Shown here piece by piece: positions 28,074-41,359 of a stretch of DNA of 64,000 nt. Under the pieces are notes generated by a model, which was given only the letters and a program-made list of their open reading frames with translations, searched no databases and was not told where the DNA came from. The position numbers and the translations under genes were made by a program. The stretch is taken from the NCBI RefSeq assembly GCF_021431925.1, contig NZ_CP090371.1, positions 806,001 to 870,000 on the forward strand, in the 5' to 3' direction. This stretch comes from Halobaculum sp. CBA1158 (GTDB lineage: Archaea; Halobacteriota; Halobacteria; Halobacteriales; Haloferacaceae). How positions within the stretch are numbered: position 1 is the stretch's first letter; each line of letters begins with the position of its first letter.

Positions 28074-29339
28074 ATGAGCGACAAACCCCACCAGAACCTG
28101 GCCATCATCGGCCACGTCGACCACGGGAAGTCCACGCTCGTCGGGCGGCTCCTCTTCGAGACAGGGAGCGTCCCCGAGCACGTGATCGAACAGCACCGAG
28201 AGGAAGCCGAAGAGAAGGGCAAGGGCGGATTCGAGTTCGCCTACGTCATGGACAACCTGGCCGAGGAGCGCGAGCGCGGTGTCACCATCGACATCGCCCA
28301 CCAGGAGTTCGACACCGACGAGTACTACTTCACTATCGTCGACTGCCCGGGCCACCGTGACTTCGTGAAGAACATGATCACGGGCGCTTCCCAGGCCGAC
28401 AACGCGGTACTGGTCGTCGCCGCCGACGACGGCGTCGCGCCCCAGACCCGCGAGCACGTCTTCCTGGCGCGCACGCTCGGCATCAACGAGCTGATCATCG
28501 GGATCAACAAGATGGACCTCGTCGACTACGACGAGGGCAAGTACAAGGAGGTCGTCTCGGAGGTCGAGGAGCTGCTCAAGCAGGTCCGCTTCGGCACCGA
28601 GGACGCCAGCTTCATCCCGATCTCGGCGTTCGAGGGCGACAACGTCTCCGAGGCCTCGGAGAACACGCCGTGGTACGACGGCGAGGTCCTCCTGGAAGCG
28701 CTCAACAACCTGCCGGAGACGGAGCCGCCGACGGACGCGCCGCTTCGGCTGCCGATCCAGGACGTGTACACCATCTCGGGCATCGGGACCGTCCCCGTCG
28801 GCCGTATCGAGACCGGCGAGATGCGCCCCGGCGACAACGTCTCCTTCCAGCCCTCGGACGCGGGCGGCGAGGTGAAGACGGTCGAGATGCACCACGAGGA
28901 GGTCGACTACGCGGGCCCCGGCGACAACGTCGGATTCAACGTCCGCGGCGTCGGCAAGGACGACATCCGCCGCGGCGACGTCTGCGGTCCCGCCGACGAC
29001 CCGCCGACGGTCGCCGAGACGTTCCAGGCGCAGGTCGTCGTCATGCAGCACCCGTCGGTCATCACGGCCGGCTACACGCCCGTCTTCCACGCCCACACGG
29101 CGCAGGTCGCGTGTACGATCGAGTCCCTCGACCAGAAGCTCGACCCGTCCTCGGGCGAGGTTGCCGAGGAGAACCCGGACTTCATCAAGTCCGGCGACGC
29201 GGCCATCGTGACGGTGCGTCCGCAGAAGCCCCTCAGCATCGAGCCGTCCAGCGAGATCCCGGAACTGGGTTCCTTCGCGGTTCGCGACATGGGTCAGACC
29301 ATCGCGGCCGGCAAGGTGCTCTCCGTCGACGAGCGCTAA
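28074..29339 (+). CDS. tuf: Translation elongation factor EF-1 alpha
   Basis: The product is 421 aa. GTPase motifs are [15 protein letters not shown] (G1), [26 protein letters not shown] (G3) and NKMDLVDY (G4). Domains II and III follow with [11 protein letters not shown] and [35 protein letters not shown]. It delivers aminoacyl-tRNA to the ribosome. A TTTTA promoter element at 28016-28020 with CGAAATG upstream suggests a leader of about 30 nt. It is followed directly by rps10, whose ATG starts on the base after the stop codon, the classic archaeal tuf-rps10 pair. Confidence 0.97.
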
Positions 29340-29654
29340 ATGCCCGGGCAACAAGCGCGCGTCCGACTCGCGGGCACGAGCCCCGACGACCTGGACGACA
29401 TCTGCGACGACGTCCGCGAGATCGCGGACAAGACCGGGGTGGCCCTCTCGGGCCCCATCCCGCTCCCGACGAAGACGCTGGAGGTCCCGTCGCGAAAGTC
29501 CCCCGACGGCGAGGGGACGGCGACGTGGGAGCACTGGGAGATGCGCGTCCACAAGCGGCTGATCGACATCGACGCCGACGAACGCGCGCTCCGGCAGCTC
29601 ATGCGGATCCAGGTCCCGAACGACGTCTCCATCGAGATCGTCCTCGAGGACTGA
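29340..29654 (+). CDS. rps10: 30S ribosomal protein S10
   Basis: The product is 104 aa of the uS10 family, with [69 protein letters not shown] and the C-terminal [13 protein letters not shown]. It belongs to the head of the small subunit. It is co-transcribed with EF-1 alpha, with no gap between stop and start. Confidence 0.97.
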
Positions 29655-29707
29655 CCTGAGGCGCACCGGACGCCCACGCGGGAGTCCGTTCGACGACCGA
29701 TTCATCC

Positions 29708-29714
29708 GTTTTTC
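29708..29714 (+). terminator. T-run after rps10
   Basis: A GTTTTTC stretch about 55 nt after the rps10 stop is the only T-run in the gap before the next gene. Haloarchaeal terminators are often plain T-runs, so it is a plausible end of the EF-1A/S10 transcript. Confidence 0.4.
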
Positions 29715-29763
29715 ACCTCGCAAGCGGCGGCACCGTTTTGCGCACGGCTCGCGACCGTCGACC

Positions 29764-30372
29764 GTGACCCTCCGATCGATCGCCGGCCGCGACGCGGTTC
29801 GCCCGGTCGCGGAGACGCTCACCGCGATGGCGGTCGCCTCCGTGGCGTTCCGGGTCGTCGACGCGGTCGCGGCCCCGCTGGCCGCGGCCCTGTTCGTGCT
29901 CTCGACGCCGACGCTCGCGCCGTGGACGCTCGCGACGAGCGTCTACGCCCACGCGGGGGTCGGTCACCTGTTCGGCAACGCCGTACTCGTCGTCGTTGCC
30001 GGGGTCCCGATCGCCGCCGGAACGACCAGGGCGCGCTTTCACGCGTTCGTGCTCGCCACGGGTGCGCTCGCGGGGGTGGCGCAGGTCTGGATCGGCGGCC
30101 TGCTCGCACCGGCGACAGTCGGCGTTCTCGGAACCAGCGGAGCGGCGTTCGCGCTCGCGGGCTACGTCGCCGCCGCCAATCCCGCCGCCGGCGCGGCGGG
30201 ACGGCTGATCGAGCGACTGGGCGCGTCGCCGCGGGCGGTCGTGTTCGTCGTCGCGCTCCTCGCGCTCGCGGTCACGCTGGCGTTCAGCCCGCCCGGGAGC
30301 GCGCTGGTGGCGCACTTCGTCGGGCTAACCCTCGGGATCGCGGCCGGCTCCGTGCGACTGCTTCGTGTGTGA
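29764..30372 (+). CDS. Rhomboid-family intramembrane serine protease
   Basis: The product is 202 aa from a GTG start, with about six membrane helices. Hallmarks are YAHAGVGHLFGNAVLVVVAG (L1 loop/helix 2, H-x-N region), GTSGAAFALAGYVAA containing the catalytic Ser, and LVAHFVGLTLGIAAG with the catalytic His of the final helix. Rhomboids cleave membrane proteins inside the bilayer; in haloarchaea they have been linked to envelope glycoprotein processing. The substrate here is unknown. It stands alone between rps10 and tRNA-Ala. Confidence 0.85.
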   Translation: MTLRSIAGRDAVRPVAETLTAMAVASVAFRVVDAVAAPLAAALFVLSTPTLAPWTLATSVYAHAGVGHLFGNAVLVVVAGVPIAAGTTRARFHAFVLATGALAGVAQVWIGGLLAPATVGVLGTSGAAFALAGYVAAANPAAGAAGRLIERLGASPRAVVFVVALLALAVTLAFSPPGSALVAHFVGLTLGIAAGSVRLLRV

Positions 30373-30435
30373 GAAACGCACGGGGGCGGGGTGAAACGGA
30401 AGTCTCAAGTGCGATCCCGGGTTCCGATGTAATGC

Positions 30436-30507
30436 GGGCTCGTAGATCAGCGGTAGATCGCTTCCTTCGCAAGGAAGAGGCCCTGGGTTCAAATCCCAGC
30501 GAGTCCA
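30436..30507 (+). tRNA. tRNA-Ala (CGC)
   Basis: The 72-nt cloverleaf has acceptor GGGCTCG pairing with CGAGTCC and discriminator A, anticodon stem CTTCC/GGAAG with loop TTCGCAA (anticodon CGC), and T-arm CTGGG-TTCAAAT-CCCAG. There is no intron and CCA is not encoded. Its last 14 nt are repeated at 33459-33472, marking it as the insertion site of a small element. Confidence 0.95.
30494..30507 (+). repeat. Left attachment repeat (inside tRNA-Ala 3' end)
   Basis: TCCCAGCGAGTCCA, the last 14 nt of tRNA-Ala, matches 33459-33472 exactly in the same orientation, 2,965 bp apart. Integrases of archaeal elements commonly target this part of a tRNA gene and leave such repeats at both ends. Confidence 0.75.
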
Positions 30508-30684
30508 TCCCACTTCGGCTCGCTCTCGAAGGACCACAAAACGGCGAGTCACAACCCTGAATCGGGTGCTTCCTCCGTAGCCACGCGAAACGAACCTGAA
30601 AAGTACAGAGAGTTCACTGACATTCTCGGCGATCCCCGTGCAGTCGCGCGAATGAAGGCGGTGCTCCGGGGTGGTGTTGCATGA
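30508..30684 (+). pseudogene. C-terminal remnant of an unidentified gene
   Basis: The frame ending at TGA 30682-30684 encodes a convincing protein tail (ATRNEPEKYREFTDILGDPRA, then VARMKAVLRGGVA) with haloarchaeal codon use, but no start codon precedes it; the frame simply runs back into the tRNA. A second ORF of 15 codons (30681-30728, MSVTADPNGRNSVHR) overlaps its stop by ATGA, which is normal operon spacing. The parent gene is not recognised. Loss of the 5' part at the attachment site fits a deletion when the element decayed. Confidence 0.55.
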
Positions 30685-30727
30685 GCGTCACCGCAGACCC
30701 GAACGGGAGGAATTCGGTTCACCGGTA

Positions 30728-30770
30728 GGGGGTGTAGCTAAGGCCACCTCATCATTAGACCACAGCCCCC
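30728..30770. other. 43-nt imperfect hairpin, possible structured RNA
   Basis: GGGGGTGTAGCTAA can fold back on TTAGACCACAGCCCCC with one bulge and a mismatch, leaving a 13-nt loop. On the minus strand the loop region reads TCTAATGATGAGG, similar to the 5' half of some tRNAs and to a box C (ATGATGA), but no matching box D or full cloverleaf is seen. Confidence 0.3.
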
Positions 30771-31279
30771 GCGACGTGAGCCGCAGGCGAAGCACCCCTC
30801 CGGGCGCGCGAAAAAATTCGTCAGAAGCAAAGTGGAACGGCTGTTAGGAAGGGATTGCCCACCCACCTTTTGCGCTGCGGGCCGGCTCCGCCGGCCCTCG
30901 GCAAAAGCTGGAGCAAAAGCACTCCTCCCTCGCTTCAGGCGGCGGAGCCGCCTTCCGCTCGGTCGTCGGCCCGCTCGCTCGCTACGCTCGCTCGCGGTGG
31001 GTGCGTCTATTGTTCTTAGTTTCTCTGTATTGACGGCAACTGGAACAGGATATATCACGTGCAGAGGATTTCAACAGAGCCACTCTACCGGGTATACCTC
31101 GAGTCATCACACCGAGCACGTGACCTCCGTGACCGTCAATAATACGCAGCGCCGGAGACGGGGTTCAGTCTCGCATGTATGTCGCTTCGATGGTCCACCC
31201 ACCGTGTGATCTGGAATCGGGTACGATCACAGACCCGCCTATCACGTGCTCACTTACGGTCAGTACATCGCGGACCCAG
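30771..31279. other. Non-coding stretch inside the element
   Basis: No convincing gene lies in these 509 bp. The middle (30860-31010) is made of GC-rich short inverted repeats (for example CCGGCTCCGCCGG and GGCGGCGGAGCCGCC) and CTCGCTCGC stretches, a pattern seen in haloarchaeal accessory regions. Open frames across it are rich in Arg, Ser and Pro and are probably spurious. Confidence 0.5.
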
Positions 31280-31849
31280 TCAACAGAGGTAGTACCTTTG
31301 ATCGCCATCAAGTAAATCGATACAGTACACGGTATTTTGATACCGGAGATACACGGCACTCACGTAATCAGGGACTGGTGTATCTGGGTTCTCTTCCTCA
31401 TAAGCGGTTGTTTGCTGAGAGAGGCGATCAATGATTTGATTGATTAGTTCTTGCAACCCAGCTGTTCGGTCAGTCTCCGGAATTCCCTGCTGAGCAGGGT
31501 ATTCAACCTTGTACTCGTACCCTGTGATCGCATAATCGAGGATTTCCTTTTTATTTGAAGACAGGAGATCATACCGTACCGGGTCGATATTTGACCGCTC
31601 TTCGTCGGAAAGCTGGACCTGGTTTAGTCGAATAGAGGTTTCAGAAGTCGGAAAAGTCGTCTGCGTCGGCGATTCCGTCGTTTCAGGTGTCGGAGATGGA
31701 CTCGACTGCCCACTAGTGGACTGTCGCTCGGTCTCGGTCATCTCTGTAGCGGAACGCTGTCCCTGTTCCGACTCCCCGAGGCACCCAGAAATCCCGAGCA
31801 CAATTGCTACTATTCCACTGAGCATAGACCGCCTCGAGCACACATTCAT
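31280..31849 (-). CDS. Secreted lipoprotein of unknown function
   Basis: The product is 189 aa. The N-terminus has an arginine-containing signal (CSRRSMLSGIVAIVLGISGC) ending in a lipobox LGISGC, so Cys22 should be lipid-modified and the protein anchored outside. A Ser/Thr/Pro/Gln-rich linker of about 50 residues, a likely O-glycosylation region, leads to a C-terminal domain of about 110 residues with several aromatic residues and two cysteines (YCIDL and the final Cys). No family is recognised. The gene is notably AT-richer than its surroundings, consistent with its place in the integrated element. The 244 bp upstream are AT-rich and show no gene. Confidence 0.75.
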   Translation of the reverse strand: MNVCSRRSMLSGIVAIVLGISGCLGESEQGQRSATEMTETERQSTSGQSSPSPTPETTESPTQTTFPTSETSIRLNQVQLSDEERSNIDPVRYDLLSSNKKEILDYAITGYEYKVEYPAQQGIPETDRTAGLQELINQIIDRLSQQTTAYEEENPDTPVPDYVSAVYLRYQNTVYCIDLLDGDQRYYLC

Positions 31850-32093
31850 CGGTTATTTCTCATTATATTCTACTTAAATGGTTTGTGTATAAGTAGCAAT
31901 AAAAATGGAAACTTTCATACTAATTATCTAAGTCGATATTTAATAATTCTTGTACGAATTATGGAGGGAGATGTAATATCGAGGTAGACAAACGAGTCTA
32001 TCTGTACCAGACAAATAGCCTGTACTGGCTTTGTTGAAATCTCAGTTATTCGACATCTTTCTTGCTGAAACAGCCGACAGGGAGGCGTGCGAA

Positions 32094-32396
32094 TCAATCA
32101 ACTCTCGTTCCTCGAACCACGCCGGATGCCGCGTAGTAGAGTGCACCGAGGAGAACGGACAGTAGATATGTATATATGAAGAATATACCAGCGATCAGCG
32201 GGAGACACGACAGCGTCCTACAACCCGAAATCCGGCCCGATTCGAGCGCGAGAGTCCAGACGGTGCCGGCCAACCAGTCGAACTGTACGGAACCATCCGT
32301 GAGTAACGGAGGGACGACCCCCGAAACAAGAATCAACAGGAACGCCGCTAGGACAGCCCGATTCAGGAAGATAGTGCGAATTCGCCGCCGCTCCAT
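32094..32396 (-). CDS. Small two-helix membrane protein
   Basis: The product is 100 aa from the ATG at 32396, supported by a GGGAGG ribosome-binding site just upstream. It has a basic start (MERRRIRTIFLNR), a first helix (AVLAAFLLILVSGVVPPLL), a polar loop with a Cys pair (GCRTLSC), and a second helix (LPLIAGIFFIYTYLLSVLLGALYYAAS). The frame is open upstream to 32468 but that part lacks supporting features. The function is unknown; codon use is less GC-biased than in chromosomal neighbours. Confidence 0.6.
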   Translation of the reverse strand: MERRRIRTIFLNRAVLAAFLLILVSGVVPPLLTDGSVQFDWLAGTVWTLALESGRISGCRTLSCLPLIAGIFFIYTYLLSVLLGALYYAASGVVRGTRVD

Positions 32397-32483
32397 AGGC
32401 CCTCCCTTCAGGACACTCCGGTAAGTGCTTTGACTGTATCTATCGCTGTCAACTGTGAGGTCGAAGCACAAAACCGAGCGTCG

Positions 32484-32633
32484 CTACTCCTCGTCGCCGC
32501 CGTCCGCGATCCGCTTCCCGCCGGCACGGTAGTCCTCGGGGTCGCCGCCGAGATCCTCGGCGAGCGCCTCCCGCAGCTCCTCGCCCTGTTCGTCCATCGC
32601 CTCCTTGAACTCCGTGAATTCCTCGTCGGTCAT
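32484..32633 (-). CDS. Small acidic protein, third gene of HicB-like mini-operon
   Basis: The product is 49 aa, strongly acidic (MTDEEFTEFKEAMDEQGEELREALAEDLGG at the start), predicted helical and without cysteines. Its ATG overlaps the stop of the upstream gene by 4 bp, so it is translated with it. No family is recognised. Confidence 0.6.
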   Translation of the reverse strand: MTDEEFTEFKEAMDEQGEELREALAEDLGGDPEDYRAGGKRIADGGDEE

Positions 32634-33004
32634 CGGTTCCGTGTTCCGTGCCATTCCTCGTACCTCTTGATATACCGTTCGCCGTGTTCGGATAAGTGTT
32701 CTTCGGCGAACGACAACGCCTCGCTCGGCGGCATCGGCGGGAACACCTCTCCACCGTCGATCTGCTCGCCGTCGCGGTACACGTCCATGTGGACCCCCTC
32801 TTCCAGCACGTCGTGCCCGAAATCCGATTCGGGGTCATGGTCAAAGCGCACGATGGGTTCCCACCTGTCGCCGTGGTCGTACTCGATCTGCACGACGAAG
32901 CGGGTTATCGTCCCGTTGTCGGAGGTGTAGCCGATTCGCCGCCGAACACGGTAATCGATCGGCGTGGTGAACTCGCGATCGTACTCGCGTGGCTCGTCAC
33001 TCAT
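32630..33004 (-). CDS. DUF7718-like haloarchaeal protein
   Basis: The product is 124 aa. The segment IGYTSDNGTITRFVVQIEYDHGDRWEPIVRFDHD, then EEGVHMDVYRDGEQ and EALSFAEEHLSEHGERYIKRYEEWHG, resembles a haloarchaeal family I recall as DUF7718. It is the middle gene of a three-gene set: its start overlaps the HicB-like gene by 8 bp and its stop overlaps the 49-aa gene by 4 bp. Placement behind a small antitoxin-like gene suggests a toxin-antitoxin-type role, but no nuclease motif is visible. Confidence 0.7.
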   Translation of the reverse strand: MSDEPREYDREFTTPIDYRVRRRIGYTSDNGTITRFVVQIEYDHGDRWEPIVRFDHDPESDFGHDVLEEGVHMDVYRDGEQIDGGEVFPPMPPSEALSFAEEHLSEHGERYIKRYEEWHGTRNR

Positions 33005-33149
33005 CAGCGCGTTCGAGGTCTGAGGCGTCGAGGTTCGATAGCGCCTCTTCCCGGATCTCCCCGGTCCCGGTGACGCCGGATTCCTCGTCGACGGCGGCGC
33101 ATTCGCCGTCGTCCGTCTGGATGAGACGGATGTCGCGCTTCGTGTTCAT
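32997..33149 (-). CDS. Small HicB-like antitoxin-type protein
   Basis: The product is 50 aa (start 33149). The core AAVDEESGVTGTGEIREEALSNLDASDL matches the short beta-beta-alpha HicB antitoxin pattern, in which a strand is followed by TGV.TQG.TREEAL.NL. It lacks the C-terminal DNA-binding domain of long HicB proteins. A HicA-type toxin is not adjacent; the partner may be the DUF7718-like protein. The start codon lies 10 bp after an 18-bp palindrome that overlaps the promoter, which suggests autoregulation. Confidence 0.6.
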   Translation of the reverse strand: MNTKRDIRLIQTDDGECAAVDEESGVTGTGEIREEALSNLDASDLERADE

Positions 33150-33158
33150 GGTCGGTCG

Positions 33159-33176
33159 TTGTCCGAAATCGGACAA
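33159..33176. promoter_or_regulatory. 18-bp palindromic operator over the HicB-like promoter
   Basis: TTGTCCGA-AA-TCGGACAA is a perfect 8-bp inverted repeat with a 2-bp spacer. It covers the space between the TATA-like CTTTTG (centred about 27 nt before the ATG, minus strand) and the start codon, so a bound dimer would block initiation. It is much more symmetrical than its surroundings. Confidence 0.65.
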
Positions 33177-33186
33177 AAGCCTTCGG

Positions 33187-33426
33187 TCAGTCCTCGTCGT
33201 CGGGGGAATCGTCTATCACGGCGTCGAAGTCGCCCGTATCCTCGTACCTGTCTCCAGGATTATAAATAAGTCGTCTGTCGACGCAGGCCTGCTCACGGCC
33301 GTCGACGGCTCAGTCGGAGGGTTCCCCGCTGGCGTGCTCGCGTTCCAGTTCGTGGTGTTCAGCCTCTCGGCGGCCGTTCTCGCCCTCGAAGTGACTTACA
33401 CGAATGCGCTGTGAGCAGTCGTACAT
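33187..33426 (-). pseudogene. 38-codon ORF continuing in frame past a TGA
   Basis: From ATG 33426 a 38-aa product is encoded (starting MYDCSQRIRVSHFEGENGRR and ending HASGEPSD, stop at 33310). The same frame then continues 40 more codons with haloarchaeal-like acidic sequence (NPGDRYEDTGDFDAVIDDSP) to a stop at 33187. This suggests a gene of about 79 codons broken by one in-frame TGA, or a 38-aa protein by itself. It lies directly inside the right attachment repeat. No family is recognised. Confidence 0.4.
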
Positions 33427-33458
33427 TGTGAATGCACAAGAGAGGCCTAGTGGAACGC

Positions 33459-33472
33459 TCCCAGCGAGTCCA
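33459..33472 (+). repeat. Right attachment repeat (copy of tRNA-Ala 3' end)
   Basis: Exact 14-bp match to the tRNA-Ala 3' terminus, followed by CTCCCGC and a T5 run that resembles a tRNA terminator. It marks the right end of the integrated element. Confidence 0.75.
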
Positions 33473-33491
33473 CTCCCGCTTTTTCCGACGC

Positions 33492-34163
33492 CTACGTCCC
33501 GGAGACGAGCGTCTCGCGCAGTTCGTGAAGCGAGTCGACGTCGAACGCCGGTTCGGGTTCGAGTTCGTCGTCGGTGTTGAACTCCCGGCGAACGAACGCG
33601 GCGTCGATGCCGACGTTGTGCGCGGCGGCCACGTCCGAGGGTCGGTCCCCGACGTACACCGCCCGGTCGGGCGTCAGGTCCGCGAGCGCCCGGTTCATGT
33701 ACCGCGTCCCCGGCTTCTCAGCGCCGACGTCCTCGACGCCCGGTCGGAGGCCGTAGTAGGTGTCGAAGCGGTCGTCGAGCCCGAACCGGTCGAGCACGCG
33801 TTCGATGGCGCTGTGCTGGTTGTTGCTCACGATACCGCGGGCCGTCGGGAGGTCGAGGAGGGCGCGCGCGTCGTCGTACAGCGCCTTCTCGCCGTCCGTC
33901 ATCGCAGTCACCTGGTTCTCCGTGACGAGCTCGTTTCGGCGGTGCCACAGGTCGTCGAAGCGGATCCCGTATGTCGACGCGAAGTGCTCCCGGGCGGCCG
34001 CGAGCCCGCCCTCCAACGTTCGAACGACGCGGAACTCTCGGGCGGTCGGGTCGTCGATGTCCGCCTCCGCCAGCGTCCGCTCGGCCGCGTCGTCGAACAC
34101 CCACGACGGCGACCGCTCCACCAACACCCCGTCCATGTCGAACACGACGGCGTCGTACTCCAT
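33492..34163 (-). CDS. HAD-superfamily phosphatase (phosphoglycolate phosphatase-like)
   Basis: The product is 223 aa. Motif I is DMDGVLVERSPSW (nucleophile Asp9), motif II GIVSNNQHSAIERVLDRFGL, motif III GAEKPGTRYMNRAL and motif IV VYVGDRPSDVAAAHNVGIDAAFVRR. An alpha-helical C1 cap lies between motifs I and II. The class covers phosphoglycolate phosphatase and similar small-molecule phosphatases; the substrate is not evident. It diverges from the glycosyltransferase gene at 34276 and is the first gene outside the integrated element. Confidence 0.85.
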   Translation of the reverse strand: MEYDAVVFDMDGVLVERSPSWVFDDAAERTLAEADIDDPTAREFRVVRTLEGGLAAAREHFASTYGIRFDDLWHRRNELVTENQVTAMTDGEKALYDDARALLDLPTARGIVSNNQHSAIERVLDRFGLDDRFDTYYGLRPGVEDVGAEKPGTRYMNRALADLTPDRAVYVGDRPSDVAAAHNVGIDAAFVRREFNTDDELEPEPAFDVDSLHELRETLVSGT

Positions 34164-34275
34164 GACGCTTGCAGCGCCCCCGTGTGCATGAGGCTGACGG
34201 GTGACCTGTCACGACCCGCTGGGTACCGCCCCAAGACACATATCCGAGGCGTCGAAGACAGCCCCAGACACCACC

Positions 34276-35652
34276 ATGGCACCGACGGTAGCCGTCGCAC
34301 ACTACCCCGAGGGGGCGGGGCACGCGACACGGATGCTCGCGATCGCCGAGGCGATCGAGGACGCCGGGGGGACCGTCCGGATGGCTGGCGGCGGTGCCGG
34401 CACCGAGTTCGTTGCGCTCAACGGGTACGACGAGTTCGAGCCGACCGTCGTCGACTACATCGGCGACTATCAGGACGGGTCGGTGTGGCGGACCGCGACC
34501 CGAAGCCTGCCGGCGAGCGTCGACCGGATCGCCGACTACCGGGCGTGGCTGTCGGCGACCGAGCCGGACGCGCTCGTCACCGACGACATGTTCGCGGCCA
34601 TCGCGGCGACGCGGTGCGACGTGCCGCTGTACGTGCTGAAACACGACATGCCGGGGCTGTACGACGACCTGCTCGAACGAACCGGGGCGGGCGTTCACAC
34701 CCGGTTCCAGCTGTCGGCCGCGCGGGAGTTCTTCTACCCGGTCGTGTGGCCCGAATCCGGCGCGGACCCGCCGCGTGCGACGCGGATCCCACCGGTCGCG
34801 CTCGACGGCGAGCCGCCGGTTCGAGACGGGTACGACGTGGTGGTCGTGCCGAGTCACTACTCGTCGCTGTCGCGGATTGCCGACCACCTCCGGCGACAGG
34901 GGTACGACGTGCTCGACGTGTCCGACGAGTCGTGGGAGCCCGTCGAGTCGCTGTTGCCGTATCTCCGCGGAGCCGACGCGGTCGTCTGCTCGGGCTACTC
35001 GACCGTGATGGACGCCGCCGTCGCCGGAACGCCCTGCGTCGTCCACCCGGCGACCGACGAGCAGGACGCCGTCGCGGAGTGGCTCGAGCGGTTCGACGTG
35101 ACCGGCTTCGCCGTCGCGCCAGATCCGATCGACGTGCTCGATGCCGTCGCGGCCCCGCCCGACCCGCCGGCGTTCGAGAACGGGGCCGAGTTCATCGCTC
35201 GGCGGGTCACGACCGATCTGTGTGACCCCGACCCGTACGCGGCCGAGGAGGTCGACGGTGCTGAGGAGATCGACGGTACCGGGGCGGTCGACGGGACCGA
35301 GGTGCAGGCGACGGACCCGGAGGCGGCCGCCGGGATGGCCCGCGCGAACGCTCCCGTCGCCACCGGATCTCGCCTCGCGTCGTTCGCGGCCGTGCCGGCG
35401 CTCGCGGCGGCGTGTCTCGTCACGACCGGGAGCCTCCTGTCGCCCTCGCGTGCGGGACGGTCCGTGGCAGGGACGGTCGCGCGGGGCGTCGGCGGGCTCC
35501 GAACTGCCGGCGGCCACCTGCGCCGGGCGGGCGGTCGCGTCGCCGGTGCGGTCGCCGGCGCTGTGACCGATGCGTTGTCGGCTGGCCGCGACGGGTGTGG
35601 GGACGCGGTCGGTCGAGTTCGCCGTGTCGTCCCCGATCGGAGTCCGTTCTGA
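34276..35652 (+). CDS. GT-B fold glycosyltransferase (MurG/UDP-glycosyltransferase-like)
   Basis: The product is 458 aa. The N-terminal half has the acceptor-side loop VAVAHYPEGAGHATRMLAIAEAI. The C-terminal half has the donor-binding pattern PYLRGADAVVCSGYSTVMDAAVAGTPCVVHPATDEQDAVAEWLERF, like the glycosyltransferase family 28 C-terminal domain. After residue 320 an acidic linker leads to an Ala/Gly/Arg-rich tail with a hydrophobic stretch (FAAVPALAAACLVTTGSLL), possibly a membrane-association segment. It probably glycosylates a lipid or envelope component; substrates are unknown. The start at 34276 gives the canonical N-terminus, and upstream in-frame residues are not conserved-looking. Confidence 0.8.
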   Translation: MAPTVAVAHYPEGAGHATRMLAIAEAIEDAGGTVRMAGGGAGTEFVALNGYDEFEPTVVDYIGDYQDGSVWRTATRSLPASVDRIADYRAWLSATEPDALVTDDMFAAIAATRCDVPLYVLKHDMPGLYDDLLERTGAGVHTRFQLSAAREFFYPVVWPESGADPPRATRIPPVALDGEPPVRDGYDVVVVPSHYSSLSRIADHLRRQGYDVLDVSDESWEPVESLLPYLRGADAVVCSGYSTVMDAAVAGTPCVVHPATDEQDAVAEWLERFDVTGFAVAPDPIDVLDAVAAPPDPPAFENGAEFIARRVTTDLCDPDPYAAEEVDGAEEIDGTGAVDGTEVQATDPEAAAGMARANAPVATGSRLASFAAVPALAAACLVTTGSLLSPSRAGRSVAGTVARGVGGLRTAGGHLRRAGGRVAGAVAGAVTDALSAGRDGCGDAVGRVRRVVPDRSPF

Positions 35653-35686
35653 GCGCGAACTGCCGTCCGGTGTCGTGCGCCGTCGA

Positions 35687-36115
35687 CTACACGCGCCGCT
35701 CGGTCACGTCGCCGTCGGCGTCGACGAGGAGGAGCCGGTCGACGCCGTCGAGCACGTCCGACCGGACGGCGTCGGCGTCGCTGGCCGGGAACGCGAGGGC
35801 CGTGTAAACGCGGTCGATGTCGACCGCATAGACGCGGCGGTCGAGGCTTTCGGCGTACCGGCCGTCCGCGACCTCGCGGAGCTTTCGCGCGTCGTCGACG
35901 TCGAAGTACGGCTTGCTCTCGACGACCAGCACGTCCCGCTCGCGGTAGGCGACGACGTCCGGCACGATCGACCCGCCGTGTTTTGTGCCGTCGGCGCGGT
36001 CGGCCGGGTGGAGCCGCAGCCCCGACCCGCTGGTGGGGTAGTCGACGGCGAACATGGTCCACCCCTCGCGCGTCAGGTGCGCTTCGACGGCCTCGGTGAC
36101 TCGTTCCTCGTTCAT
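35687..36115 (-). CDS. PD-(D/E)XK nuclease-fold protein
   Basis: The product is 142 aa. The core HGGSIVPDVVAYRERDVLVVESKPYFDVDD holds a textbook PD-(D/E)XK motif: Pro52-Asp53 and Glu66-x-Lys68, in the beta-hairpin of the restriction-nuclease fold. The N-terminal helix (NEERVTEAVEAHLTREGW) is also typical. It starts 7 bp after the stop of the 416-aa gene upstream and ends the three-gene operon that begins with the methyltransferase-glycosylase fusion. A DNA-cleaving role, possibly as restriction subunit, is inferred from motif and context. Confidence 0.75.
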   Translation of the reverse strand: MNEERVTEAVEAHLTREGWTMFAVDYPTSGSGLRLHPADRADGTKHGGSIVPDVVAYRERDVLVVESKPYFDVDDARKLREVADGRYAESLDRRVYAVDIDRVYTALAFPASDADAVRSDVLDGVDRLLLVDADGDVTERRV

Positions 36116-36122
36116 CGCCGAG

Positions 36123-37373
36123 CTATCCCTCCCGCCACAACGCCCCGTCGTGAAACAGGATCGCGTCCGCGAAGTAGGCGTAACACCGGACGAGTTTCCG
36201 CTGTGTGTAGCGGGTGCCGTGGCGAACCTGCATGTAGTACCGGGGGATCTCGTGGGGCCGAAGGTCGTCGTACTCCCGCCCGAGCAGCAGTCGGCCGTCG
36301 ACCGACACCACCTTGTTAACCTCCTCAAGGAACGCCTCGACGGACGAGCCCTCCTCGCTTCTGGCCGACACCGACAGCGACCCGTCCTCCACGCTCACGC
36401 TCCCCCAACAGAACACCAGATTCCTGTCGCGCTCTCTGTACGACTCGCCGATGCGCGTCTCCAGGTAGTCGATGGCCGCCAGCGCGCCGGGATACGGGTC
36501 GCCGCGGATCTTCGCGTTCGCCGAGTAGATGACGGTCTCGTCGCGGCGTTCGAGCAGTTCCGGCGTGCAGTCGGGGTCTTCCTCCTCCAGATACTCCACG
36601 ACGAGGTCAGTCGGAACCGTGGTCGTGCTGGTGAGCGGCGACCACGTCCGATCGGGGCCTCCCTTGCTCGCGAACTCCTGGTGCATCCAGTTCCGGCGCT
36701 CGCGGATCGTTCGGTTCTTGATGAACTCGCGCTCGCTCCCGCCGGTGGCGCGGTCGACGAACACGTCGATCACCTCGAACAGGCGCTGCATCTCGGGGTC
36801 CGACCGCTCGGGCTGTCCCGCGATCTCGTCGTCGTACCGGAGTCCGTTCTGCGAGGAGGCCGCGGTCGGCGGCGAGCCGTCGCCGTCGAAGTCGGTCGGA
36901 TAGTAGAACAACAGCGCCGGTTCGTCGTGGATCTGCATCGCGCTCTCGAGGGCCCTGAACACGAGCGGATTGAGTTCGTCCCAGTCCTGGCTGTTCGTGC
37001 GGACGATGAACGACGCCTCGGGGTAGATGTACAGCGCCGGCACCGACGCCTCCACGGAGGCGGCGATCCGCGGGAACCGCTGGAACGCGTTGTGTCCGGT
37101 GCCCGCCTCCTCCGATATCTCGACGGTGAACAGCGGCTCGTCGTTCGCCTCGACGATCAGATCCGGCGAGTCCAGATAGAGGATCTCCTTGATGTGGTCG
37201 GGGACTCGGTGGAACTCCCGAGGGTCGCCGGCGTCGCTCTTCGGGAGGTGTTCCGTCTCGATGTCGGCCCCGTGTGCGGCGAGGTCGGTGTTCTCCACGA
37301 TGTACCGCGCGAACCGTTCGCTGTCGTGCCAGAGCCGAAACATCGGTCGATGGAACCGACTGGTCGCCGTCAC
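36123..37373 (-). CDS. Candidate restriction endonuclease of the methyltransferase operon
   Basis: The product is 416 aa, with no family recognised with certainty. Residues 68-90 (LDSPDLIVEANDEPLFTVEI and on) resemble an atypical PD-(D/E)XK hairpin (Pro70-Asp71, Glu85-x-Ser87) in which the lysine is replaced. The next block GTGHNAFQRFPRIAASVEASVPALYIYP looks like the helix and strand that follow it in such folds. The C-terminal 250 residues are mixed alpha/beta with many aromatics (RTWSPLTSTTT, EIPRYYMQVRHGTRYTQRKLVRCYAYFADAIL). It sits 64 bp after the m5C methyltransferase gene and 7 bp before a second nuclease-fold gene, so a type II restriction role is likely but unproven. Confidence 0.6.
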   Translation of the reverse strand: MTATSRFHRPMFRLWHDSERFARYIVENTDLAAHGADIETEHLPKSDAGDPREFHRVPDHIKEILYLDSPDLIVEANDEPLFTVEISEEAGTGHNAFQRFPRIAASVEASVPALYIYPEASFIVRTNSQDWDELNPLVFRALESAMQIHDEPALLFYYPTDFDGDGSPPTAASSQNGLRYDDEIAGQPERSDPEMQRLFEVIDVFVDRATGGSEREFIKNRTIRERRNWMHQEFASKGGPDRTWSPLTSTTTVPTDLVVEYLEEEDPDCTPELLERRDETVIYSANAKIRGDPYPGALAAIDYLETRIGESYRERDRNLVFCWGSVSVEDGSLSVSARSEEGSSVEAFLEEVNKVVSVDGRLLLGREYDDLRPHEIPRYYMQVRHGTRYTQRKLVRCYAYFADAILFHDGALWREG

Positions 37374-37437
37374 GTATTAAACCGGCGCGGATCGGTCCGC
37401 TTGTCGCTCGGCAGTCGTCGACGCCGGCGAGGGCGGC

Positions 37438-39471
37438 TCAGTCGTCGCGGGGGAACCGACACCGAAGCCTCGCCGGGCAGGCGTCACACCGCGGCGACGC
37501 CGCGGTACAGGTCTCACTCGCGAACGCCAGCAGCGAGCGAACGTACGCCGCGGGGTCGTCCTCGGGGGCGATGGCCTCGGCGAGTTCGCGGAGGTACTCA
37601 TCGTCGTCTCCGAGATCCGACCCGAACGAGCGGTCCACGTCGTCCGAACCCAGACCGTAGTAGCGACCGTACACCCTCGCGACGCGCTCGTCCACCACGG
37701 GGGCCGGGTCGCCGACGCCGAAACAGACGACCGTGGCGGCGACCGCCGGGGTCACGTGTGGCAGGTCGGTGAGCCTCTCCACGGTGGTCGGAAGGTCGCG
37801 GAAGAGCAGTTGCGTGCAGATGTCCCGCAGGTCGGCGATCCGGGCGTCGGCGTCGTCGATCCCGTGACGCTCGAGGAGCGTAGCGAGCGCCTCAGAGTCG
37901 GCCTCGCTGACGGCGTTCGCGTCCGGGTAGCGCTCGATCAGTTCGGCGTACGCCGCCGACACGTCGCCGTCGGTAGCGTCGCCGTCGGCGGTGTCGCCGT
38001 CGACAGCGTCGCCGGCGGCGTCACCGAGCAGGAGTTCGCCCGCGAGCACCTCGAACGGCGTCGGATCGGCGTCGGAGCGCATCCAGGGACGGACGGCGTC
38101 GCCCGACACGTCGGCCTCGCGGACGGCGTCGACCAGCGCTTGCGCGTCCCGCCCCCGGCGGACCGACTCGCCGATCCGTTCGGCCAGCAGCGGCGGGACG
38201 GCCATCCCCGTCTGTACGCGCCCCTGGACCGTGCCGCCCTCGAAGCGGAACGAGTCGGGGAACGACTGGAGGCGGGCGCGCTCGCGGACCGACAGTCCGC
38301 GGGACTGCTCGAAGTGACCGTACTGGAACTGCGGTCGGATCCCCCCGGCGATGATCGTCGGTCCCGGCTCGTCCGGGTGGAGGCGGATCCGCTGTCTGAA
38401 GCGGTCGTACATCGGCTCGCCGGGGTCGGTCCCCTCGACCCGGTCGATCGTCGTCTGTCGGTGATTGGGTGCCTGGTGGTTCGCGAGCGACGCGTCTGCG
38501 TCGCTGTCGTCACGGGTACCGTCGCTTCCGTCGCTGTCGTCGCGAGCACCGTCGTCGTCGCCGCTCTCGCCGTCGTCCGCGGCGGTGTCGCGCCCGTCGG
38601 CGACTCCCGCGTCGCGCTCGCGCATCAGCCGCTGGTACTCGGTGAGGTCGCCGTCGCCGGCCGCGTCGCGCTCAGTCGCGGCCTCGCCCGCGGCCAGCGC
38701 CGGCAGGTCGCCGATCGCCTCGGCGGCCGTCCGGTGATCCTCCTCGTGGGTCGGTCGCGGCCACAGGACCGGCGCGTCGGTTCGCGTTCCGAGGAAGAAC
38801 AGCCGCCGGCGCGTCTGCGGGACGCCGTAGTCCGCGGCGTTGAGGATCCGGTGGTCGACGGTGTAGCCGAGCCGGTCGAGGCACTCCTCGATCGCCTCGA
38901 CGAAGCCGCCGTCGTCGGCGGCCTTCATCGTCGAGACGTTCTCGATGAGGACGTACTCCGGGTCCAACAGCCGGACGCCCCTGATGAACTCCTCGAAGAG
39001 GTAGTTCCGCTCGTCCTCGTCGTGCTGCTTGCGGTTGGCGATCGAGAAGCCCTGGCAGGGGATGCCGGCCGTCAGCAGGTCCAGGTCGTCGCCGTCGAGC
39101 GCCTCCTCGGCCACCGTCGAGAGCATCGTCGACTCGACGGCGTCGTCGCTGTCGACGACGTCGAAGATGTCGCGCTCGTCGTCGTCCCGCTTGTTGATCC
39201 GCCGAATGTCGCCGAGGATCGTGTGAGCCTGGGGGTGGTTCTGCCGGTAGGTCCGCACCGACGGCTCGTGGATGTCGACCCCGAGCACCGCCTCGAAGCC
39301 GGCCCGTTCGAGCCCCGTCGAGATGCCGCCGGGACCGGAGAACAGGTCGATCACCGTCGGCCGGTCGCGGTCGCGCGACCCCGGTTCGACCGGGGGGAAG
39401 TGCTTCGGCTCGTCCGCCCAGTTGTGGCGGTTCTCCTCGATCTCGCTCCCGGGCTCCCACGCGTCAGCCAT
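37438..39471 (-). CDS. DNA (cytosine-5) methyltransferase fused to an Fe-S HhH-GPD DNA glycosylase
   Basis: The product is 677 aa. Residues 38-445 form a complete C5 methyltransferase: motif I DLFSGPGGISTGLERAGF, motif IV GIPCQGFS with catalytic Cys139, motif VI ENV (177-179), motif VIII QTRRR (219-223) and a C-terminal motif X region. An acidic low-complexity insert occupies about 260-335. Residues 470-677 form an EndoIII/MutY-type HhH-GPD domain: helix-hairpin-helix near 570-583, catalytic Asp594 in VVDERV, and a [4Fe-4S] loop C655-x6-C662-x2-C665-x5-C671. The usual EndoIII lysine position is Ala, so it is likely a monofunctional glycosylase. The start at 39471 places motif I at the usual distance. 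It is the first gene of a three-gene operon. Confidence 0.88.
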   Translation of the reverse strand: MADAWEPGSEIEENRHNWADEPKHFPPVEPGSRDRDRPTVIDLFSGPGGISTGLERAGFEAVLGVDIHEPSVRTYRQNHPQAHTILGDIRRINKRDDDERDIFDVVDSDDAVESTMLSTVAEEALDGDDLDLLTAGIPCQGFSIANRKQHDEDERNYLFEEFIRGVRLLDPEYVLIENVSTMKAADDGGFVEAIEECLDRLGYTVDHRILNAADYGVPQTRRRLFFLGTRTDAPVLWPRPTHEEDHRTAAEAIGDLPALAAGEAATERDAAGDGDLTEYQRLMRERDAGVADGRDTAADDGESGDDDGARDDSDGSDGTRDDSDADASLANHQAPNHRQTTIDRVEGTDPGEPMYDRFRQRIRLHPDEPGPTIIAGGIRPQFQYGHFEQSRGLSVRERARLQSFPDSFRFEGGTVQGRVQTGMAVPPLLAERIGESVRRGRDAQALVDAVREADVSGDAVRPWMRSDADPTPFEVLAGELLLGDAAGDAVDGDTADGDATDGDVSAAYAELIERYPDANAVSEADSEALATLLERHGIDDADARIADLRDICTQLLFRDLPTTVERLTDLPHVTPAVAATVVCFGVGDPAPVVDERVARVYGRYYGLGSDDVDRSFGSDLGDDDEYLRELAEAIAPEDDPAAYVRSLLAFASETCTAASPRCDACPARLRCRFPRDD

Positions 39472-39808
39472 CGTCCTCGATCGGGGCGTGGGTCGGTTCG
39501 GGGGCGTGCGCAGCCATCGGATCGGAGGAGTGCGCGGGGTCGTTTCATCGTTTCGCTCCGCACGGGCCGAACCCCTGCGAACGGTCCCCCGGCGACCGCG
39601 TCGGTAACGGGGCCGTCTCGGCGACGGCGACCGCGTCGGCGACGCGACCGCGCCAGCGCCGCAACCGGACCGCCAACGCGACCGCGCCGGCGACGTAGTC
39701 ACGTCTGTCTCGCGACGCGGTCACAACCGCCCTTCCTCGCAGTACCTCGGTTTCACTTTCACTCCGCATGGCTCGCGTACAAGTCGTCCCCGTCCATCAC
39801 GGTGAGGT

Positions 39809-39991
39809 ATGAGCACGAGTCAGGCCGTCGCCCGTCCCGAGCGCGTCGAGGTCGAGACCGGCACACGCGCGCGCATCGACGTGAGCGAGACCACGGTCCA
39901 CGAGGTCGAATCGTTCCTGCGGCGCAACGACTGCACCGTCCACCTCGAGCGGCGCGGCGGGAGGACGGACCTGGTCGTTCTCGCGGACTGA
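39809..39991 (+). CDS. Small conserved haloarchaeal protein
   Basis: The product is 60 aa: VEVETGTRARIDVSETTVHEVESFLRRNDCTVHLERRGGRTDLVVLAD, an alpha/beta unit with one cysteine and no membrane segment. Codon use is typical of the chromosome. The function is unknown. It stands alone between the methyltransferase operon and the convergent ribonuclease gene. Confidence 0.6.
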   Translation: MSTSQAVARPERVEVETGTRARIDVSETTVHEVESFLRRNDCTVHLERRGGRTDLVVLAD

Positions 39992-40027
39992 CGGGACCCC
40001 GTCGGCGTCGCGGTCGCGGCAGCGACG

Positions 40028-41359
40028 CTACTCGGGGACGGTCTCGGGTCGGTCGTACTGGGCGTCCTCGGGGTCGTCGACGACCTCGACGCCGCGGTTG
40101 TTCACCGCGTAGGAGTCGAGGCCGACCTCCTGCATGAACTGCTTGTAGAGGCGCTCGGCCGTCTCGCCGTCCTTCTGCTTGTCGGAGGCGCGGTCGCACA
40201 GTTCGATGAGATTCTCCGGGACGTCGTTCTCGTGGACGATCCAGTGGTTGATGAGGTCCGAGAGCCGGCGGATTGGAGAGGTGAAGTGTCCGTAGATGTC
40301 GAAGTTGAGGGCGTGGTGACCGCCGAAGGGGTCGTTCATGTACTTCGCACGGGGCATCACCTTCAGCACGGCGCGCTGGATCTTGTTGAGCTGGCGGTCG
40401 GGTGCCTGTTCGAGGGCGGCGTTGACGGCCTTTCGGGGGTCGTCGCCCCAGGCGTCGCCGGGGATGGAGACGCTGTCGAGCTCCTGGATCTCGTTGAGCG
40501 CCTCGTTCCACTGCTCGGGCGTGGGCTGCGGGTGGACGCGGTACATCGCCTCGACGCCGCGGTTCCACATCAGCTCGTGGGTCACCGCCTTGTTCGCCTT
40601 CAGCATGCACTCCTCGATGATGGTGTGGGCGCGGTCGCGGCTCGGATTCAACACCAGCGAGCCGTCCGCCTTGCGCTGCTCGTGGAGCTGGTCGGCCACG
40701 TCGTACGCGAGGACTGACTCCTCGTGCAGCGGGGCGTCGGGGTCCTCCAGACGCGCCTCGCATTGCTTGTAGGTGAGTCGCTCGTCGGAGTTGATCACGG
40801 ACTTGTAGATGTCCAGTTCCTCGAACGAGAGCGTCTCCTTGTCGAGGCGCATCTCGACGGTGTGTGCGAGGCGGTCCTCGTTGGGGACCAGCGAACACAC
40901 GGTCTCCGCGAGGATCGGCGGAAGCATGTGGACGGTGTAGCCGGGGAGATACACGGTGTTGCACCGCTCGACCGCCTCCTCCCACATCGCCGAGTCGGGA
41001 TGAACGTAGTGGCTCACGTCGGCGATGTGGACCCACAGGTGGTACTCGTCGCCGTCGTCCTCGACGGAGATGGCGTCGTCGAAGTCCTGTGCATCGGCGG
41101 GGTCGGTCGTCCACGTCGTGAGGTCCCGGAGATCGCGTCGCTCGTCGACCTCGTCTCGTATCTCCTGTTGGACGCCCTCGGTTCGGTCCTTCGCCTCGCG
41201 TTTCACCTTCGGGGGAAACTCGTCGCGGATCTCGAACTCGGCGAACAGCGACTCGCGTTTGTCGGCGAGCGCGTCCGCGAGCCCCTGCGTGATGGTAACC
41301 GGTCCCTGGTCCTCGGCGGTGCCCTGGTCCGGCTCCTCTTCCGACTGTGCGTCGCTCAT
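40028..41359 (-). CDS. rnr: RNB-domain exoribonuclease (RNase R/II family)
   Basis: The product is 443 aa, essentially an RNB domain alone. The metal-binding catalytic loop DPADAQDFDDAIS (residues 86-98) has the four conserved Asp, followed by WVHIADVSHYVHPDSAMWEEAVERCNTVYLPGYTVHMLPPIL and, near the end, HFTSPIRRLSDLINHW. The N-terminal 50 residues are acidic and disordered. Bacterial members carry cold-shock and S1 domains that are absent here, as usual in haloarchaea. It should degrade RNA 3' to 5'; archaea without an exosome use this enzyme as a main exonuclease. Confidence 0.9.
   Translation of the reverse strand: MSDAQSEEEPDQGTAEDQGPVTITQGLADALADKRESLFAEFEIRDEFPPKVKREAKDRTEGVQQEIRDEVDERRDLRDLTTWTTDPADAQDFDDAISVEDDGDEYHLWVHIADVSHYVHPDSAMWEEAVERCNTVYLPGYTVHMLPPILAETVCSLVPNEDRLAHTVEMRLDKETLSFEELDIYKSVINSDERLTYKQCEARLEDPDAPLHEESVLAYDVADQLHEQRKADGSLVLNPSRDRAHTIIEECMLKANKAVTHELMWNRGVEAMYRVHPQPTPEQWNEALNEIQELDSVSIPGDAWGDDPRKAVNAALEQAPDRQLNKIQRAVLKVMPRAKYMNDPFGGHHALNFDIYGHFTSPIRRLSDLINHWIVHENDVPENLIELCDRASDKQKDGETAERLYKQFMQEVGLDSYAVNNRGVEVVDDPEDAQYDRPETVPE

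Follow-up and report, generated by a model that had tools for sequence, protein, structure and literature searches.

We examined a 64,000-nucleotide stretch of Halobaculum sp. CBA1158 (contig NZ_CP090371.1, positions 806,001 to 870,000), referred to here as the window, which carries a compact three-gene cassette on its minus strand. The first gene encodes a 677-amino-acid (aa) fusion of a C5 cytosine methyltransferase to a C-terminal HhH-GPD domain with an iron-sulfur (Fe-S) loop. It is followed on the same strand, after gaps of 64 and 7 bp, by genes for a 416-aa protein (P2) and a 142-aa protein (P3). The features are listed below in coordinates of the window, with expectation values given as E.

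37438 to 39471, minus strand: 677-aa fusion, C5 cytosine methyltransferase plus C-terminal HhH-GPD/Fe-S domain, from domain profiles, with homologues fixing the start codon
38155 to 39363, minus strand: C5 methyltransferase domain, residues 37-439, catalytic Cys139, Asp-rich linker at about residues 285-328 (PF00145, E 1e-64)
37438 to 38136, minus strand: decayed Mig.MthI-type HhH-GPD domain, residues 446-677, with Asp594 kept, Ala576 as the Tyr126 equivalent and Thr574 for the hairpin Gly, from fold, tree and alignment
37459 to 37509, minus strand: four-cysteine iron-sulfur loop, residues 655-671, C655-x6-C662-x2-C665-x5-C671
37946 to 38019, minus strand: 15-bp GC-rich tandem repeat coding an Asp-rich insert beside the former base-reading segment (R47-A50 of Mig.MthI)
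36123 to 37373, minus strand: P2, 416-aa large nuclease subunit with the fold of BsmI 1-444 and P70/D71/E85, from the predicted structure
35687 to 36115, minus strand: P3, 142-aa PD-(D/E)XK protein with D53 and E66-S-K68, probable small nuclease subunit
35546 to 39737, no strand: approximate extent of the acquired cassette, where homology to a same-genus empty site ends and restarts

The reading frame of the fusion begins at an ATG common to all homologues (M-S/A-D-A/V-W). PF00145 matches residues 39-437 over profile positions 2-322 of 324, and the C5 motifs GIPCQGFS, which holds the catalytic Pro-Cys, ENV and QRR are conserved across the four homologues described below. A GC-rich repeat within the coding sequence (38499-38614) expands the Asp-rich stretch of this domain and is missing from homologues. 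At the C-terminal end, PF00730 (HhH-GPD) matches residues 503-610 with 26.0 bits at a cut-off of 26.2, and the mutY and nth profiles match at 5e-14 and 2e-8. The domain is modelled with a predicted local distance difference test score (pLDDT) of 83, and its best match among solved structures is 1kea, the Methanothermobacter glycosylase for thymine-guanine (T:G) mismatches (Foldseek E 2e-9, template-modelling score 0.73). An earlier note on this DNA had described such a fusion, with an intact C-x6-C-x2-C-x5-C loop and catalytic Asp, followed at the same spacings by two nuclease-like genes; the profile matches, the four cysteines with Asp594, and the PD-(D/E)XK-type motifs of the two same-strand genes agree with that description throughout. 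It had not picked up the Ala at the catalytic-lysine/Tyr126 position, the replacement of the hairpin glycines or the Asp-rich tandem repeat at the beginning of the domain.

Distribution and acquisition of the cassette

To place the cassette, we drew on a sample of 391 haloarchaeal genomes. P2 finds a match in 10 of these, including the window's own, and its family profile in 12. The fusion-P2-P3 order and orientation occurs in four: the window and three further loci, L016, L017 (Haloferax marisrubri) and L019, whose P3 homologues are PD-(D/E)XK proteins of 142-175 aa. Recurrence of the three-gene order in these three other genomes, seen in a gene-neighborhood search, indicates that the arrangement to which the earlier note drew attention is not due to chance. 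At four more loci (L018, L020, L021 and L023) a P2 homologue lies near an ordinary C5 methyltransferase of 359-363 aa without the HhH domain, which in L018 reads as two adjacent frames; a small PD-(D/E)XK protein is also present beside P2 and the unfused methyltransferase in L018, L020 and L023. As P2 and P3 also stand beside unfused methyltransferases, the nuclease pair and the C5 methyltransferase form the core of the cassette, to which an HhH domain is added in some cases only.

The cassette is horizontally acquired and probably mobile. P2 was not found in the other sampled members of the genus, and in G293, the closest same-genus genome examined, whose flanking RNase gene is 96% identical, the flanks are joined without the cassette, with homology to the window ending near 35545 and restarting at 39738. 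No clean duplication at the borders was seen among the repeats searched. In another family, the unfused version at L020 lies in a comparable position, flanked by the same RNase gene and by tRNA-Ala/S10/EF-1alpha. Neither a P2 relative nor the fusion was found in viral contigs, and P2 relatives were not found in plasmid records. When genome contigs were scanned with the alignment of the fusion, the sole match was the Haloferax marisrubri contig that also carries L017, under strict patterns that do not imply absence elsewhere.

The slot itself, from the RNase (RNB) gene to tRNA-Ala/S10/EF-1alpha, spans 28074-41359 in the window and L020:5810-13604, and is occupied by differing versions of the restriction-modification system in two families of haloarchaea. 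Within the genus, too, it varies in gene content. Just after tRNA-Ala, the stretch at 30500-33000 of the window has a G+C content of 53-58%, compared with about 70%, and contains a small lipoprotein-like gene and a 124-aa gene. It is possibly another acquired stretch.

The probable nuclease pair

Both downstream proteins carry PD-(D/E)XK-type motifs, P70-D71...E85 in P2, where the motif Lys is absent in the window, and D53...E66-S-K68 in P3. P2 has zero Pfam matches, and a PDB sequence search with it gave nothing useful; its relationship to BsmI was found by fold search only. The only strong fold matches of its AlphaFold model (pLDDT 67, predicted template-modelling score 0.74) are four BsmI structures (E 2e-9 to 1e-8), and realignment on BsmI 1-444 gave a Z score of 15.1 over 312 residues. 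The PADLOC profile for Type II nicking endonucleases, PDLC03392, matches eight of the ten P2 homologues. The spacing of P70/D71/E85 is identical to that of P57/D58/E72 in BtsIB, the large subunit of BtsI (PMC2909958). In BtsI and BsrDI, the large subunit recognizes DNA and cuts one strand, and the small subunit cuts the other (PMC4081073).

P2 and P3 are thus most likely two subunits of one BsmI/BtsI-like nuclease. Position and motif make P3 the probable small subunit; a search against the PDB gave weak Hjc matches only. The earlier note had treated the two proteins as a pair of nuclease-like partners, and their nuclease-like character stands, reinforced by the structural match of the 416-aa model to a known restriction enzyme, although they are better read as parts of one enzyme than as separate nucleases. 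We also considered P3 as an apurinic/apyrimidinic endonuclease or a Vsr-like repair nuclease and dropped the idea, because P3 accompanies P2 also where there is no glycosylase domain.

Among known Type IIT and IIS enzymes, the cassette resembles single-chain BsmI in the fold of P2, and two-subunit BtsI and BsrDI in motif spacing and in having a small PD-(D/E)XK partner encoded by the next gene. It differs from them in being haloarchaeal, in having one C5 methyltransferase instead of a strand-specific pair, and in a P3 whose sequence does not match BsmI directly. A more distant haloarchaeal pair of 509 and 241 aa (L097:4252-8233, genome G232) covers the two ends of a single restriction-enzyme profile, and its 241-aa member matches BsmI 460-596 (E 8e-12); a profile comparison of the P3 family with this small subunit found no match. 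The L097 split BsmI-like enzyme sits with N6/N4-type and D12-class amino-methyltransferases, the classic two-methyltransferase arrangement in a haloarchaeon.

Descent and altered residues of the fused domain

Phylogenetic and structural comparison place the fused domain in a known lineage. A maximum-likelihood tree groups the four fused domains in a single clade (support 100/99), which joins stand-alone, methyltransferase-adjacent glycosylases (99/96) and is separate from the MutY and the two Nth-like proteins of this genome. The genome has five other HhH-GPD matches; the three that align to the Mig-like family are MutY- or Nth-like, and none is Mig-type. The PADLOC profile PDLC03398 matches the fused domain (E 1e-9), as it does stand-alone Mig-like proteins. 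The HhH-GPD domain descends from the Mig.MthI-type lineage of T:G glycosylases that is paired with 5-methylcytosine (m5C) methyltransferases; the earlier note had drawn the connection to such paired glycosylases, and the tree and the 1kea match now support it.

Many haloarchaea encode the stand-alone relatives, most of which are 208-250 aa long. In their nearest clade, which is sister to the fused domain, a C5 methyltransferase lies within ~2 kb in 11 of 14 sampled cases, often directly adjacent; in a neighboring clade, none of six sampled had one within the fetched flanks. The same coupling, again with an intact Mig-like glycosylase, is found on plasmids of Thermus and Caldicellulosiruptor. 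These pairs differ from the fusion in having separate genes and intact catalytic residues, and in haloarchaea their neighbors are ATPase-like genes instead of BsmI-like nucleases. Methyltransferases adjacent to a stand-alone glycosylase belong to another clade of the tree than the fused methyltransferases, so that the coupling appears, from these sequences, to have arisen independently more than once.

In three Thermus plasmids (L124, L125 and L126) and the Caldicellulosiruptor plasmid pCALKR01 (L127) the genes for the methyltransferase and an intact Mig-like glycosylase are adjacent or overlapping, and at L127 the pair also adjoins a gene for a PLD-type restriction enzyme. A Thermus plasmid match annotated as a methyltransferase, together with its relatives, was considered as a further set of fusions and rejected, the genes being separate and adjacent or overlapping. 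A recurrent haloarchaeal island (L062:1928-6817, L066, L067, L071, L074, L058, L059 and similar loci) combines a ~371-aa C5 methyltransferase and an intact ~211-aa Mig-like glycosylase with a ~634-aa protein bearing a 'VREVLQNANDQ' ATPase-like motif (PADLOC PDC-M33A, E 3e-22) and a ~345-aa protein; some copies also carry a DUF6339 protein. It looks like a poorly described defense island.

The fused domains have departed from this ancestry at the residues that matter for T:G excision. We scored eight positions that are important or conserved in Mig.MthI (E42, T48, A50, G124, Y126, D144, N146 and L187). They are kept in 110 of 112 instances among stand-alone, methyltransferase-adjacent proteins and 29 of 32 among plasmid-borne ones, compared with 11 of 32 in the fusions. 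The window copy retains just E42 (E479) and D144 (Asp594), and has A, T, G, R and R at Tyr126, Gly124, A50, N146 and L187; other residues take the place of its base-reading segment R-T-T-A, and after them comes an Asp-rich insert derived from a GC-rich repeat that homologues lack. All four fusions, unlike the stand-alone proteins, have His at the hairpin and have lost the hairpin Gly, which is Thr, Asp or Glu. Glu42 is missing in two of the four, and Fe-S ligands are lost in L016 (three of four) and L017 (one). In Mig.MthI, the substitution Y126S is reported to abolish T:G activity, and A50 and L187 set base preference (PMC2714593).

The rate of change is less easily read. Tip lengths of the HhH domain run from 0.30 (L019) through 0.62 (L017) and 0.96 (L016) to 1.53 in the window, the longest of the fused copies, and those of the methyltransferases of the same proteins are 0.12-0.20, with 0.12 in the window. 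The nonsynonymous rate (dN) of the domain is 2.2-4 times that of its methyltransferase, although ratios in stand-alone pairs also reach 4, with a median of 1.85, so the dN comparison alone is no proof of relaxation. All four fused domains are in frame, with zero stop codons or frameshifts. Given these intact frames and a low ratio of nonsynonymous to synonymous rates (dN/dS), the domain is probably still constrained.

Function of the cassette and its fused domain

We favor, at a probability of about two in three, the reading that this is an m5C Type II restriction-modification cassette with a captured, mostly non-catalytic glycosylase domain. The domain identities, gene order, empty site, lineage and residue losses on which it builds come directly from sequence or structure. 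The N-terminal domain of the fusion would methylate cytosine at its own recognition site and so protect the host; P2 would provide recognition and cut one strand and P3 the second, the two together cutting unmodified DNA. The HhH-GPD domain would have been captured once from the Mig.MthI-type glycosylases found elsewhere beside C5 methyltransferases and have lost most residues for T:G excision. It is then probably not a working T:G glycosylase, and may persist as a structural or DNA-contacting part of the methyltransferase. The earlier note had already read the locus as a restriction-modification system, which remains the most likely interpretation in light of the conserved order of nuclease pair and methyltransferase.

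Several observations pull the other way. Known two-subunit BsmI/BtsI-like enzymes usually have asymmetric sites and two methyltransferases, and no C5 methylase other than the fusion was found in the genome, in which amino-methyltransferases elsewhere were not searched for; possibly the recognition sequence is a palindrome, or an amino-methyltransferase encoded elsewhere contributes. P3 does not match the C-terminal half of BsmI directly in sequence. L019 retains Tyr126, and in the window Asp594, all four cysteines and E479 are intact. The domain dN/dS is 0.22-0.27 in the two closest pairs, a rough estimate as synonymous sites are near saturation, and that of P3 is similar (0.20, window and L016), which does not suggest free-drifting junk. 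At L016 a second C5 methyltransferase, of another clade, lies directly upstream of the fusion (L016:6702-7958), as would be expected if that system needed two methyltransferases.

These retained residues bear on whether the C-terminal domain works as a T:G (or uracil-guanine) glycosylase, repairing deaminated m5C at the sites of its own methyltransferase. Its lineage, which has C5 methyltransferases as partners in archaea and thermophilic bacteria, the presence of Asp594, E479 and the cysteines, the confident fold nearest to 1kea and the lack of a Mig-type enzyme among the other aligned HhH-GPD proteins all speak for it, and because of the residues kept here and Tyr126 in L019, some glycosylase activity may persist. 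We nevertheless consider it unlikely. With Ala in place of a tyrosine whose change to Ser inactivates Mig.MthI (PMC2714593), T:G repair by the window fusion is itself unlikely, and the altered hairpin Gly, the Arg residues at Asn146 and Leu187, the replaced R-T-T-A segment, the Asp-rich insert and the loss of Glu42 or Fe-S ligands in homologues point the same way. The earlier note's picture of a system equipped with a repair enzyme of its own is therefore not borne out as regards a working enzyme, with 11 of 32 key positions kept and L016 without three Fe-S ligands; since catalytic residues are lost in the fused clade, the idea suits the stand-alone relatives better.

A repurposed domain that excises no base, and instead serves to bind DNA with mismatches or methylation, or to steer or regulate the methyltransferase, for instance by restraining methylation or helping processivity in high salt, is a tentative possibility. 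It would account for retention in all four fusions without frame breaks, for apparent purifying selection and for the hairpin His and Gly loss that the fusions share and stand-alone proteins lack, although loss of the hairpin Gly runs contrary to canonical HhH DNA binding and the domain changes faster than its methyltransferase. Somewhat more doubtful is a single protein that inspects the very sites at which it makes m5C. Its altered HhH-GPD domain would keep the Asp and the Fe-S cluster, and its reading of deaminated or methylated cytosine would have changed, possibly to a non-excising or differently specific one. That the domain is a functionless, decaying passenger tolerated at the C-terminus is improbable: the long window branch, the repeat expansion within the domain and the mostly lost Fe-S loop of L016 fit decay, but four copies free of stops and frameshifts, a dN/dS well below 1 and a confident model do not.

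The favored reading, a restriction-modification cassette with a captured domain, can be set against known systems. On plasmid pFV1 of Methanothermobacter, the Mig.MthI gene is paired with that of M.MthTI, a C5 methyltransferase. The fusion shares with Mig.MthI the HhH-GPD/Fe-S lineage and the link to an m5C methyltransferase in a restriction-modification setting, and differs in that the domain is fused and that Tyr126, the base-reading residues and the hairpin Gly are gone, Mig.MthI being a separate and active enzyme. In Escherichia coli, Dcm and Vsr likewise tie an m5C methyltransferase to the handling of its deamination product, but Vsr is an endonuclease, not a glycosylase, and there is no homology. 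The conserved cassette is real and the fusion is unusual: no report of a methyltransferase-glycosylase fusion was found in the open-access literature searched, and the two surveys of archaeal restriction-modification checked (PMC10609329, PMC6471742) make no mention of glycosylases or of such a fusion.

Known from a plasmid of Methanothermobacter, the combination of m5C methyltransferase and T:G-type glycosylase is widespread among haloarchaea and on plasmids of thermophiles and appears to have been made more than once, and split BsmI-like enzymes are added to the archaeal repertoire. One lineage fused the repair partner to the methyltransferase, and the catalytic residues of that partner were then lost. 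The resulting natural series, from intact stand-alone proteins through the mildly altered L019 to the strongly altered window copy, offers a test of whether restriction-modification systems need, or outgrow, their own repair.

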